From Clostridiaceae bacterium (GTDB taxonomy: Bacteria > Bacillota > Clostridia > DSM-8532), in NCBI GenBank assembly GCA_012521705.1, contig JAAYLX010000027.1:81582-145581 (forward strand): a stretch of DNA of 64,000 nucleotides. The letters run 5' to 3'. The position numbers and the translations under genes were made by a program. Positions 59,714 to 64,000 of the stretch are shown piece after piece (within the stretch, counting starts at the first letter, position 1; each line of letters starts with the position of its first letter). The notes under the pieces were generated by a model. The model made no database searches. It had not been told where the DNA came from and saw only the letters and a program-made list of their open reading frames with translations.

Positions 59714-60688
59714 TCATGATGTCTTCTTTCTATGCAGCGCCTTTTGCACTTTCTCTACGATATTGTCTGCAGTCAGTCCGAACCTTTCCCTCAGGTAATT
59801 CTCAGGTCCAACTTCTCCGAATAAATCTTGCACGCCGACTCTTTCAAGGGGTGCAGGACAGTTCTCAGAAAGCACTTCCGCCACAGCTGAACCCAAACCA
59901 TTGATAATATTGTGATTCTCAGCGGTAACAATTGCACCGGTTTCTTTTGCTGCAGCTATTATTGCTTCCTTGTCTATTGGCTTAAGTGTAAACATATTAA
60001 GAACTCTGACTGAAATACCCTGATCCTGAAGTTTTTTGGCAGCCTTCAGAGCCTCCTCAACCATAATTCCAGTAGCTATAATTGTTGCATCATTTCCGTC
60101 TCTGAGCTTAACAGCTTTTCCAATTTCAAAGCTGGAGCCCTCTTCATATATTTTAACGGCATTTTTCCTTAACAACCTTATATAGAATATACCATACATA
60201 CCTGCGGTCTGTCTGACCAAATCCTTGAGCATTACAGTATCTACAGGTTCAAGTATTGTAATCTCAGGTATGTTTCTCATAATACCCATATCCTCAAAAG
60301 GCATGTGGGTACCGCCGTTATAGGCTGCTGTAACTCCAGGGTCACTTCCAATAATTCTTACATTCAGCTTTGCGTAAGCGCAGGACATGAATACCTGGTC
60401 AAAGCATCTCCTGGTTGCGAAAGGACCAAAGGAATGAGCAAAAGGAATCTTTCCAGTTGCGGAAAGTCCGGCAGCTATACCCATCATATTGGCTTCCTGT
60501 ATACCTACGTTGAAAGTACGTTCAGGATATGCCTTCCAGAAGGGTACCATGCCCATGGAACTCATAAGGTCTGCATCAAGCGCAACGATATTGCTGTTTT
60601 TCTCAGCCAGTTCCATTAAGGTCTGACAGTATGCATCCCTCATGGCTGTTGTTTCTTTTACATTTTCAGTTGCCAATATTACCTTCAT
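59714..60688 (-). CDS. Transketolase, C-terminal (pyrimidine-binding) subunit
   Basis: Second subunit of a split transketolase, 324 aa, carrying the TPP pyrimidine-binding domain (ATENVKETTAMRDAYCQTL, VGIQEANMMGIAAGLSATG with the catalytic Glu) and the C-terminal transketolase domain (VLNMFTLKPIDKEAI). It moves two-carbon units between sugar phosphates. Its gene overlaps the N-subunit gene by 4 nt (ATGA). Split transketolases are common in clostridia and archaea. An alternative is a DXS-like or sugar-modifying relative, but the pairing with GAPDH and PGK genes favours central metabolism. Confidence 0.9.
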   Translation of the reverse strand: MKVILATENVKETTAMRDAYCQTLMELAEKNSNIVALDADLMSSMGMVPFWKAYPERTFNVGIQEANMMGIAAGLSATGKIPFAHSFGPFATRRCFDQVFMSCAYAKLNVRIIGSDPGVTAAYNGGTHMPFEDMGIMRNIPEITILEPVDTVMLKDLVRQTAGMYGIFYIRLLRKNAVKIYEEGSSFEIGKAVKLRDGNDATIIATGIMVEEALKAAKKLQDQGISVRVLNMFTLKPIDKEAIIAAAKETGAIVTAENHNIINGLGSAVAEVLSENCPAPLERVGVQDLFGEVGPENYLRERFGLTADNIVEKVQKALHRKKTS

Positions 60689-61541: not shown

Positions 61542-62810
61542 CTACTTTGTAATGTTTTTGGTATAAGCTTTCTCCATGGCCTCTATCAACGGCAGTTTCT
61601 TTCCTGAGAGGAATCTTACCATTGCACCACCGGCTGTACATACATAGCTGATTTTGCTGAGGTCTATGAAACGGGATGCAGCGCTGACTGTATCTCCGCC
61701 ACCGATTACAGAATATCCGGGAGCTTCTGCGATTGCATTCCAGATTTCTTTGGTTCCCTTTTCAAACAGCTTGTTTTCATATACACCGGCGGGGCCGTTT
61801 ACAAAAATGGTTCCTGCATTTAAGAGTATCTCTCTGTATTTGGCAATAGTCTTTTCACCAATATCCATATACATTTCTTCTGCGGGGAGCTGATCCGCTG
61901 AAATCTCCACTCTTTCCCCGACCTTCTCATAGGCCAGATCCAGAGGCACTTCAATCTTATCGGGATAGTCCCTCAGATATTCCTTTGCAGGCTCAACAAA
62001 CAGATGGAGCTCCCTGTCTGTCAGGAACTTTTCCTTTTTGCTTCCCAACTTCTTGCCCATAGCCCACAGCATAATCTCTCCGGTTATACCGCATGCCAGA
62101 ATCTTGTCGGCAGTGCCGTTTTCCAGTACCTGCTTCATCATTCCGAATGCATCGGATATTTTTGCGCCTCCAAGAACAAATACTGACGGTTTCACAGGCG
62201 CCTTCATAACCTTTGTCAATGCGCTGTATTCCTCCATGAGCTGTCTTCCGCCGGCAGTGGGCAGAAGTTCCTGGAAGGCTACCATTGATGGGGCATTCCT
62301 GTGGGCAGCCGCAAAGGCATCATTTACATAGTAGTCAAATAGTGGCGCAAGACTTCTTATTAGGTAGGTATTTAACATTTCTTCGGCTTTCAGCTTAACG
62401 GCATTTTCAAATGTCGATATCTCCTCACAAAGATATCGTAAATTTCCTAAGAGGATTGCTTCTCCGGGCCGGAGGGCTTTGACAGCCTCCTGAGCAGCCG
62501 GCCCGCAAACATCGTCAATATACTTAACTTCCCTGCCCAGATATTGAGACAGCTTTTCAGCATGCTCATTCATGGGAATGAGGTTTTGATAATCAAGGGT
62601 ATCTCCTTGGTGGGCAATAATTGCGAGTCTTGCGCCTTTATCAAGAATATCCCTTATAGTAGGGATAGTTGCTTTTATTCTGTTATCATTGACGATTTTC
62701 TTTGTCACCGGATCAATGGGTGAGTTAATATCCGGTCTTAACAGCACCCATTTTCCGGAAAAATCAAATTCGTCAATTGAGCGTATTTTTACAGCATTGT
62801 TTACTTCCAT
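61542..62810 (-). CDS. pgk: Archaeal-like phosphoglycerate kinase
   Basis: A 422-aa PGK that aligns with archaeal enzymes (VLLRPDINSPID, VNDAFAAAHRNAPSM, LGGAKISDAF, MDIGEKTIAKYREIL) and not with the typical bacterial form. Relative to the archaeal pattern, the His of the substrate loop is kept but the basic residue is replaced by acidic (HQGDT for HQGKP/HQSRP), LEN is LGN, and the GGGH nucleotide loop is GGGDT. Catalysis may therefore be altered. It overlaps the upstream GAPDH gene by 10 nt, and archaeal-type GAPDH and PGK are functional partners. Confidence 0.9.
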   Translation of the reverse strand: MEVNNAVKIRSIDEFDFSGKWVLLRPDINSPIDPVTKKIVNDNRIKATIPTIRDILDKGARLAIIAHQGDTLDYQNLIPMNEHAEKLSQYLGREVKYIDDVCGPAAQEAVKALRPGEAILLGNLRYLCEEISTFENAVKLKAEEMLNTYLIRSLAPLFDYYVNDAFAAAHRNAPSMVAFQELLPTAGGRQLMEEYSALTKVMKAPVKPSVFVLGGAKISDAFGMMKQVLENGTADKILACGITGEIMLWAMGKKLGSKKEKFLTDRELHLFVEPAKEYLRDYPDKIEVPLDLAYEKVGERVEISADQLPAEEMYMDIGEKTIAKYREILLNAGTIFVNGPAGVYENKLFEKGTKEIWNAIAEAPGYSVIGGGDTVSAASRFIDLSKISYVCTAGGAMVRFLSGKKLPLIEAMEKAYTKNITK

Positions 62811-63823
62811 TTTCCCAACCCCAAGTATTTATTGGTTTCTGCAACAGCCTTGAGTCTGTCAGTTTCCATTTCCATACATGCTCTTACAGCGTCCATTGTT
62901 TCAGGAATGGTTACTGCTTCCTGGGGTATATTAATTGCGTACATGATGTCGTCGCCGGACTCAACTATTGATTCTTCCCAAACAGCGATTTCATACATGT
63001 CTCCTCTCGGATTTCCGAGATCTCTTGCATATCTGAACAGTGAAGCATTGCCAAGGAATCCGTCTGCCAGTCTAACAACTCTGATTCTGTCATGGGATTT
63101 GAATGCTTCAAGAGCCATTTCCTTTGTAATCTTCTTCTTACCTTTAGCTACAACGGTGATAATGTGGCCATGTGTAACAGGTGTGTGAATTAATATTCCG
63201 GTAGCTTCTATATGAGGCATAATTGTCATAAGGTCAACTGCCTGATGACTGGGAGCCTTGTCAACCTGGAGAGCGTTTGTAAGACCTCTGTGATAATCGC
63301 CAGGGTCAGCAACACGTCTTACGATTGTTATAGCAACCTTTTCGATTCCATACAGTCTGTCAAGGCAGTCAACTGATCTGATAAGACCTGTTGTGTTACA
63401 TGATGTAAGTTTTAAGAACTGCTTGCCAAGACCTTTTTCATAGTTTGCATATCCATGGAAGAATACGTCAGCAACGCTGTTCTTTTCTCCGCCCTGGAAT
63501 ATAGCCTTCTTGTTGTATTTTGCGTAAAGCTCTTTGTTTTTAGCACCTACGCCGGCACTGGTAGCATCCAGAATAACATCGCACTTCTGGATCATGTCTT
63601 CAAGAGTACCTGATACGGGAATGTTGAGTTCTTCAAAAGCCTTCGCATTATCAGGATTTGCAAGGTACAAATTGTAGGGCATCCCTTTTTCTTTGAGAGC
63701 TCTTATAGCTAAAGTGGGAGCTACGTCAGCAACACCTACAAGCTCCATATCCTTCTGTTTTGCAACACCATCAGCAAGACGCTGACCTATTACGCCGTAA
63801 CCGGCAACACCAACTTTAATCAT
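62801..63823 (-). CDS. Type II (archaeal-type) glyceraldehyde-3-phosphate dehydrogenase
   Basis: A 340-aa phosphorylating GAPDH of the archaeal class, which is nearly unrelated in sequence to bacterial GapA. The N-terminal dinucleotide motif is GYGVIGQRLADGV (9-21) with GVADVAPT, and the catalytic cysteine is Cys142 in SCNTTGL. GGAGGAGG lies 9 nt before the ATG. It is the first glycolytic gene in an operon with the archaeal-like PGK and the split transketolase. Coenzyme preference is not clear from sequence. Lateral transfer from archaea or an ancient clostridial lineage is likely; presumably the usual gapA exists elsewhere. Confidence 0.93.
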   Translation of the reverse strand: MIKVGVAGYGVIGQRLADGVAKQKDMELVGVADVAPTLAIRALKEKGMPYNLYLANPDNAKAFEELNIPVSGTLEDMIQKCDVILDATSAGVGAKNKELYAKYNKKAIFQGGEKNSVADVFFHGYANYEKGLGKQFLKLTSCNTTGLIRSVDCLDRLYGIEKVAITIVRRVADPGDYHRGLTNALQVDKAPSHQAVDLMTIMPHIEATGILIHTPVTHGHIITVVAKGKKKITKEMALEAFKSHDRIRVVRLADGFLGNASLFRYARDLGNPRGDMYEIAVWEESIVESGDDIMYAINIPQEAVTIPETMDAVRACMEMETDRLKAVAETNKYLGLGKWK

Positions 63824-63845: not shown

Positions 63846-64000
63846 TTATTCTTCCAAACAAGGCAAAGTTGAACCCCCGTAGGGCATCACAATAATTTTT
63901 GCATTGTTTCCGGCTGCTTTTATTGCTTCATCAATTGCTTGTTTAATATCTTTGTAAGGTTCCAGGAAAATACTCCTTACAAAGTCATCATCAAGGTCGG
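63846..64000 (-). CDS. C-terminal fragment of a probable LarA/DUF2088-family protein
   Basis: The minus-strand frame is open to the right edge and ends at TAA at 63846. It reads DLDDDFVRSIFLEPYKDIKQ, then AAGNNAKIIVMPYGGSTLPC and LEE. The ALEEAxxxAGxxAKVxVxPYGxxTLP pattern is like the C-terminus of nickel-pincer lactate racemase homologs. Only 51 residues are visible, so the call is tentative. It lies 22 bp before the GAPDH gene and appears to be part of the same operon. Confidence 0.5.
   Translation of the reverse strand, partial: DLDDDFVRSIFLEPYKDIKQAIDEAIKAAGNNAKIIVMPYGGSTLPCLEE

Follow-up and report, generated by a model that had tools for sequence, protein, structure and literature searches.

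Why would a clostridial genome carry a type II glyceraldehyde-3-phosphate dehydrogenase (GAPDH-II) and an archaeal-like phosphoglycerate kinase (PGK) beside a split transketolase? These genes lie at the right end of the window, the 64,000-nucleotide stretch of DNA analysed here (G000:C32:81582-145581, that is, contig C32 of genome G000). An initial annotation had read them as a module for triose-phosphate oxidation, or for the gluconeogenic direction, with a possible link to lactate. We consider it probable (roughly 0.78) that these genes make up the lower half of a myo-inositol operon, in which transketolase replaces the kinase IolC and the aldolase IolJ, and malate semialdehyde would be converted to D-malate with a gain of ATP.

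Gene content of the operon

The genes at the right end of the window are:

63846..64000, minus strand: 3' end of larA (last 50 codons and stop); best match NF052593, malate racemase LarAH6
62801..63823, minus strand: type II GAPDH-like protein, 340 aa; NF003251 and TIGR01546 over cut-off
61542..62810, minus strand: PGK-like protein; PF00162, 360.7 bits
60685..61521, minus strand: transketolase N-terminal half (TKN), ThDP-binding; PF00456, 3e-54
59714..60688, minus strand: transketolase C-terminal half (TKC), with the altered substrate motif SDPGVTAAYNGGTHMPFED; PF02779/PF02780
57968..59683, minus strand: methyl-accepting chemotaxis protein (MCP); PF00015 and PF00672; same place in L014
56831..57865, minus strand: LacI-family regulator; PF00356 and Peripla_BP_3; orthologue at the same place in L014

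Profile scores agreed with the identities first assigned (type II GAPDH, PGK, split transketolase, LarA-like), and the suspected LarA link was borne out by the 3' end of a LarA-family gene 22 nt from GAPDH. GAPDH and PGK overlap by 10 nt, PGK and TKN are separated by 20 nt, and TKN and TKC overlap by 4 nt; 30 nt then separate TKC from the MCP gene, and 102 nt separate the latter from the LacI gene. The tight, one-strand spacing from LarA to TKC fits co-transcription, and the operon organisation was further upheld by a relative in which the whole operon is unbroken (see below). The LacI-family protein is the probable operon repressor, and the MCP may be a chemoreceptor for inositol. Genes resembling MCPs are found close to GAPDH-II in L035, L036 and L095 too.

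Extension to the right of base 64000, as had been proposed, was not feasible within C32 because the contig (145,581 bp) ends at that base; the missing genes were supplied by another contig of G000 and by a relative of the same genus. Contig C1 (12,264 bp) has the order transporter-IolB-IolD-IolE-IolG-malic enzyme-LarA, with a transporter of the sugar ABC type, and ends after LarA codon 361 (L113:11180-12264). Measured against the intact 416-aa LarA of the relative, G013, only about 4 codons are unaccounted for across C1 and C32, and we infer that the two contigs are adjacent in the genome. In G013 (L014), whose GAPDH is 97% identical, the unbroken operon runs on one strand as LacI-MCP-TKC-TKN-PGK-GAPDH-II-LarA-malic enzyme-IolG-IolE-IolD-IolB-sugar ABC transporter. 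Its IolG, IolE and IolD score above the curated cut-offs TIGR04380, TIGR04379 and TIGR04377, and its IolB is a TIGR04378 homologue under cut-off (113/205). The iol genes on C1 are 90-95% identical to their G013 orthologues, and IolD is over cut-off in G000 as well.

A profile search of the G000 genome found no IolC over cut-off. An IolA-like (MMSDH) gene is present on contig C13 (L131:9817-11175), with the first ~60 model residues apparently missing; hence the prediction of the transketolase route that IolA should be absent fails genome-wide for G000. This gene is distant from any iol gene; its neighbours encode a LacI regulator and an alcohol dehydrogenase of the zinc type. The search for a standard gapA and pgk elsewhere was positive: an ordinary GAPDH-I and PGK lie in a gapA-pgk-tpi-gpmI cluster on contig C19. 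A third PGK-family gene, of the Ser (HQGSD) type, is on contig C30 (L007:8924-10192), where it stands by itself, preceded by sugar ABC transporter, two-component and MCP genes.

Proposed route from inositol to malate

2-Deoxy-5-keto-D-gluconate (DKG), the product of IolB, reads CH2OH-CO-CHOH-CHOH-CH2-COO- from its keto end and has the D-threo configuration of xylulose and fructose. With CH2-COO- in place of CH2-OPO3, it is a carboxylate analogue of xylulose 5-phosphate. We propose a route of six steps: (i) IolG, IolE, IolD and IolB would turn inositol into DKG; (ii) the split transketolase would hand the two-carbon ketol unit of DKG to an aldose phosphate, for example glyceraldehyde 3-phosphate (GAP) to give xylulose 5-phosphate, leaving (R)-malate semialdehyde, (R)-OHC-CHOH-CH2-COO-, the carboxylate analogue of D-GAP; (iii) GAPDH-II would oxidise and phosphorylate this aldehyde to malyl phosphate; (iv) the PGK homologue would convert malyl phosphate and ADP to D-malate and ATP; (v) the LarAH6 malate racemase would convert D-malate to L-malate; and (vi) malic enzyme would convert malate to pyruvate, CO2 and NAD(P)H. 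No ATP would be spent on DKG, and the PGK step would yield one ATP per inositol. Xylulose 5-phosphate formed from the C2 unit would re-enter the pentose phosphate pathway; this fate is assigned because no phosphoketolase was found in G000, and cleavage of xylulose 5-phosphate by that enzyme was rejected on the same ground. The activities in this scheme are read from sequence: the conversion of inositol to DKG follows the chemistry established for the classical pathway, whose genes are present; those leading from DKG through malyl phosphate to D-malate are predicted from the enzymes' relatives and context, and those of LarA and malic enzyme from family assignment.

Three probable variants of inositol catabolism among Clostridia

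We surveyed one sample of 293 Clostridia genomes, using profile cut-offs for IolD and IolC and counting strong matches for GAPDH-II. IolD was found in 23 genomes, IolC in 13 and GAPDH-II in 11, in keeping with the presumed rarity of the last in bacteria. IolD was present in 9 of the 11 GAPDH-II genomes versus 14 of the 282 others (Fisher p 1e-9, kinship ignored). Among the 23 genomes with IolD, 11 had IolC, 9 had GAPDH-II and none had both (Fisher p 3.4e-4, kinship ignored); true IolC and GAPDH-II occurred together in 0/293.

The other three genomes with IolD (G106, G067 and G092) lack IolC and GAPDH-II but have, within the iol operon, a gene of the transaldolase family (L115:5862-6941, L116:5910-6986 and L127, respectively). 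A CoA-acylating aldehyde dehydrogenase is encoded near these transaldolases, of the MMSDH/IolA type in G067 and of the SauS type in G106; the MMSDH/IolA-type gene of G092 is a 96% identical copy of the one in G067. From DKG, a transaldolase would release malonate semialdehyde, on which IolA acts, and these genomes likely contain a transaldolase variant of inositol catabolism that runs from DKG to malonate semialdehyde. The 23 genomes thus sort into three groups, with kinase and aldolase, with transketolase or with transaldolase, mirroring the three strategies by which sulfoquinovose is degraded (PMC9594981).

The transketolase, GAPDH and PGK homologues

All transketolase domains were found: thiamine (PF00456), pyrimidine (PF02779) and C-terminal (PF02780). 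Two ordinary split transketolases in G000 have the substrate motifs THAGITVGEDGASHQ and THAGIETGFDGATHQ. The same motif reads SDPGVTAAYNGGTHM in the window TKC, and nearly so in GAPDH-II-linked enzymes. The ordinary split-transketolase pattern, His...G-x-D-G-x-[TS]-H-Q, is absent from the window transketolase; nearly all GAPDH-II-linked transketolases have S/T-D-[PSA]-G...[YF]-N-G-G-T-H-M instead.

The window GAPDH scored 420.7 bits against NF003251 (cut-off 185) and 314 against TIGR01546 (cut-off 232.9). In our alignment, Cys142, Arg169, Arg170, His193 and His218 are conserved in 84/84 sequences, and about 39 columns are family-specific, including His to Gln194, Pro to Leu181 and Met to Thr217, beside conserved catalytic positions. 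The GAPDH-II tree groups every bacterial row in a single clade (100/100), which a long branch separates from the four archaeal structures; GAPDH-II is thus not simply archaeal. We rejected a plain archaeal import in favour of this separate bacterial clade; the archaeal rows sit on very long branches, and the tree is read for the separation rather than for an exact origin. For the PGK, the top match in the PDB is an archaeal enzyme, 2cun (290 bits; best bacterial relative, 198). Within the bacterial clade phyla are mixed, and the window protein groups with Leptolinea/Flexilinea of Chloroflexota. The tree, which gives neither date nor root of transfer, suggests that GAPDH-II moved between phyla; to that extent, it supports the lateral acquisition first suspected.

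Of the three Pseudoclostridium thermosuccinogenes GAPDHs that Koendjbiharie et al. (2019) expressed, the type II enzyme, CDQ83_07070, gave no GAPDH activity with either NAD+ or NADP+ in a cell-extract assay, which is weak evidence; bacterial type II GAPDHs had 'no functional evidence' on record (PMC6543838). The published primers for CDQ83_07070 specify an N terminus of VKVGVA and a C terminus of MGKWK followed by the stop (PMC6543838). Proteins of the window-type family begin and end as IKVGVAGYG...LGLGKWK, and archaeal enzymes have other termini; judged by these termini, CDQ83_07070 very probably belongs to the bacterial GAPDH-II family of the window. We propose that the window GAPDH-II is an (R)-malate semialdehyde dehydrogenase (phosphorylating).

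The PGK-like proteins have the nucleotide-binding and catalytic motifs GGAK, NGP, GGGD and TAGGA, and their 3-phosphoglycerate ligands are conserved (human numbering) at Asp23 and Asn25, which bind the C2 oxygen, and at His62, Arg38, Arg122 and Arg170. The equivalent of human Arg65, one of three arginines contacting the 3-phosphate in PGK (PMC7729029), is Asp in 54/54 proteins of the window type (PGKb) and Ser in 25/26 of a second type (PGKc). Hence the Arg65/122/170 triad for the 3-phosphate is incomplete, with Arg65 missing and the other two retained. We propose that the window PGK is a malyl-phosphate:ADP kinase yielding D-malate and ATP.

Could the pair instead consist of true triose-phosphate enzymes? 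Inositol would then feed GAP or xylulose 5-phosphate, the operon would bring its own glycolytic GAPDH and PGK to oxidise the triose (or to work in reverse), and an ordinary transketolase would serve the pentose shunt. Both proteins retain all catalytic residues and match the type II GAPDH and PGK profiles, and the pair is found outside iol operons in some genomes. We regard this reading as improbable, however, since an ordinary GAPDH-I accompanies GAPDH-II in 17/18 genomes tested, G000 has its own GAPDH-I and PGK, a 3-phosphate ligand of PGK is gone, and the P. thermosuccinogenes enzyme showed no GAPDH activity (PMC6543838). It also leaves the malate racemase, the malic enzyme and the exclusion of IolC unexplained. 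The triose-phosphate role first assigned to the module, like the gluconeogenic direction, is thus not supported, in view of the iol operon, the malate-type LarA, the malic enzyme, the lost PGK ligand and the lack of GAPDH activity in a probable family member (PMC6543838). A stand-in function for missing housekeeping GAPDH and PGK was rejected on the presence of both in G000 and of GAPDH-I in those 17 genomes.

Malate racemase and malic enzyme

The part of LarA encoded on C1 scored 549.9 bits against the NF052593 cut-off of 500, and the G013 orthologue scored 604.6. By family assignment, the operon LarA is a member of the malate racemase family LarAH6, an enzyme of which racemises malate with a Km of 0.38 mM (PMC7583248). 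Two distant LarAs from Spirochaetota still had LarAH6 as their best match, under cut-off. LarC, a gene for synthesis of the NPN cofactor, is over cut-off at G000:C17. A malic enzyme specific for L-malate could use D-malate only after racemisation, and the operon encodes precisely this pair, a racemase and a malic enzyme. The GAPDH-II-PGK-LarA-malic enzyme set is retained without iol genes in L033, L071, L085, L094, L095 and L098, which argues for malate as the product of the module. The tie to lactate metabolism was rejected on the malate type of LarA and the malic enzyme in the operon.

Spread of the module and its linkage to iol genes

A contig scan found at least 547 encoded GAPDH-II relatives, and the best 80 of these were taken further. 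The locus counts cover 82 GAPDH-II loci, many of them contig fragments, with neighbours scored within the DNA examined. PGK was present in 79/82 loci, TKN in 34, TKC in 33, LarA in 48 (34 close and 14 distant) and malic enzyme in 25. At least two of IolB, IolD, IolE and IolG were found in 42/82 loci, and IolB in 31 of these 42. IolC, IolJ, IolA and the iol-operon transaldolase, searched at >=50% identity, were found in 0/82. The hosts include Clostridia, Chloroflexota, Spirochaetota, Planctomycetota, Synergistota and others (Fonticella tunisiensis DSM 24455 and Clostridium magnum DSM 2767 are examples of carriers in culture), and the association of iol genes with GAPDH-II recurs across phyla and gene orders. 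Against the transketolase route, about half of the loci are without iol genes in the DNA examined, partly because contigs are short; modules at these loci may be fed from another source. LarA and malic enzyme are missing from some iol-linked loci, many of which are contig fragments.

These counts bear on a second alternative, in which DKG still undergoes phosphorylation and then cleavage by an aldolase whose gene lies elsewhere, while transketolase, GAPDH, PGK, LarA and malic enzyme serve an unlinked substrate (for example malate, tartrate or a sugar acid) and merely share the operon. PfkB-type kinases under the IolC cut-off occur in nearly all genomes (best E 7e-30 in G000), G000 has the IolA-like gene, and the GAPDH-II/PGK/LarA/malic enzyme set is found without iol genes. 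Yet IolC and GAPDH-II never co-occur in the 293 genomes, neither IolC nor IolJ flanks any of the 82 loci, the iol association repeats across phyla and gene orders, and the IolA-like gene is seemingly truncated and distant from the iol genes. We hold this alternative to be quite improbable.

Several loci have other company. Christensenella-type loci L023, L024, L025, L029 and L037 have only GAPDH-II and PGK, beside housekeeping genes, which also counts against the transketolase route; L045 and L051 are of the same kind, and ordinary GAPDH-I is present as well in 6/7 of this set. L015, L070, L089, L094, L095 and L119 have GAPDH-II, PGK and LarA, often malic enzyme, and a gene of the Asp/Glu/hydantoin-racemase family, but lack iol genes; in L070 and L095, a gene resembling aldehyde ferredoxin oxidoreductase lies near the module. 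In L033, L048, L092 and L098, the neighbour of GAPDH-II and PGK is an E1 complex resembling acetoin/pyruvate dehydrogenase; three of these loci also have LarA, and two have malic enzyme. This complex is perhaps a CoA-forming thiamine enzyme that frees malate semialdehyde from a 1-deoxy-ketose acid. At L018 (7792-8493) and L057, a creatininase-family gene adjoins GAPDH-II; its nearest relative is IolN (3-dehydro-scyllo-inosose hydrolase), under cut-off, and it would represent a further inositol link.

A third reading draws on two of these arrangements: the transketolase would act on a different intermediate of the iol pathway or on a ketose derived from an inositol isomer (for example 5-keto-gluconate, or the product of a diketo-inositol), the aldehyde another sugar-acid semialdehyde and LarA its epimerase. 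The IolN-like gene at L018 and L057 is in its favour, IolN being a diketo-inositol hydrolase, as is the acetoin-dehydrogenase-like complex that replaces transketolase in L033 and L098. We find it very improbable, given that DKG-making IolB is present in 31 of the 42 iol-linked loci, LarA is of the malate type over cut-off, and malic enzyme adjoins it.

Discussion

We favour DKG as the transketolase substrate and malate as the product. More broadly, it seems fairly likely that transketolase, GAPDH and PGK have been duplicated as a parallel series for carboxylate analogues, and that a kinase/aldolase, a transaldolase and a transketolase form of inositol catabolism can replace one another, with ATP made from malyl phosphate in the transketolase form; this would account for most 'archaeal-type' GAPDH annotations in bacteria and for many LarAH6 racemases. 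In the open-licence literature, with subscription journals and preprints outside the scope, we found nothing relevant on an inositol-transketolase or inositol-transaldolase route or on malate semialdehyde from inositol. As far as that literature shows, the transketolase-GAPDH-II-PGK branch of inositol breakdown is most likely previously undescribed.

If the proposal is true, inositol catabolism gains a transketolase route, plus a transaldolase route from its neighbours; bacterial type II GAPDHs gain a function; and GAPDH and PGK will have been re-tuned from phosphate to carboxylate substrates. It would give many LarAH6 racemases a physiological role and help explain the large malate racemase group. 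The inositol pathway is used to predict phytate and inositol metabolism in gut and soil, and iolC-less genomes would be wrongly called incomplete.

The operon shares the upper half of the canonical myo-inositol pathway (IolG-IolE-IolD-IolB-IolC-IolJ-IolA), with an ABC transporter and a regulator nearby. It differs in lacking IolC and IolJ and having transketolase, GAPDH-II, PGK, malate racemase and malic enzyme instead; its predicted products are malate or pyruvate and a C2 unit, in contrast to malonate semialdehyde and DHAP. The operon LarA is a member, over curated cut-off, of the LarAH6/Mar2 malate racemases (PMC7583248, PMC11770544), and the main texts of those papers mention neither inositol nor transketolase. 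GAPDH-II resembles the archaeal type II enzymes (PDB 2czc, 1cf2, 2yyy and 1b7g) in fold family by sequence, catalytic Cys/His/Arg and length, whereas the window family forms a separate clade with Gln for the second His of PSHH, Leu for Pro181 and some 35 further columns of its own. A parallel in logic is the sulfo-TK pathway of Clostridium sp. MSTE9 (SqwGH; PMC9594981), which also uses a split transketolase, acts on a 2-ketose with a non-phosphate anionic end, transfers C2 to GAP and likewise belongs to a pathway that comes in kinase/aldolase, transaldolase and transketolase versions. Genes for a sulfoquinovosidase, SqvD or SqwF were not noticed among the neighbours of the module. Its substrate is a sulfosugar, whereas that proposed for the operon is an inositol-derived carboxylate sugar acid; and where sulfo-TK isomerises the C4 aldehyde and cleaves again, the operon would oxidise it, with ATP gained through the GAPDH and PGK homologues.
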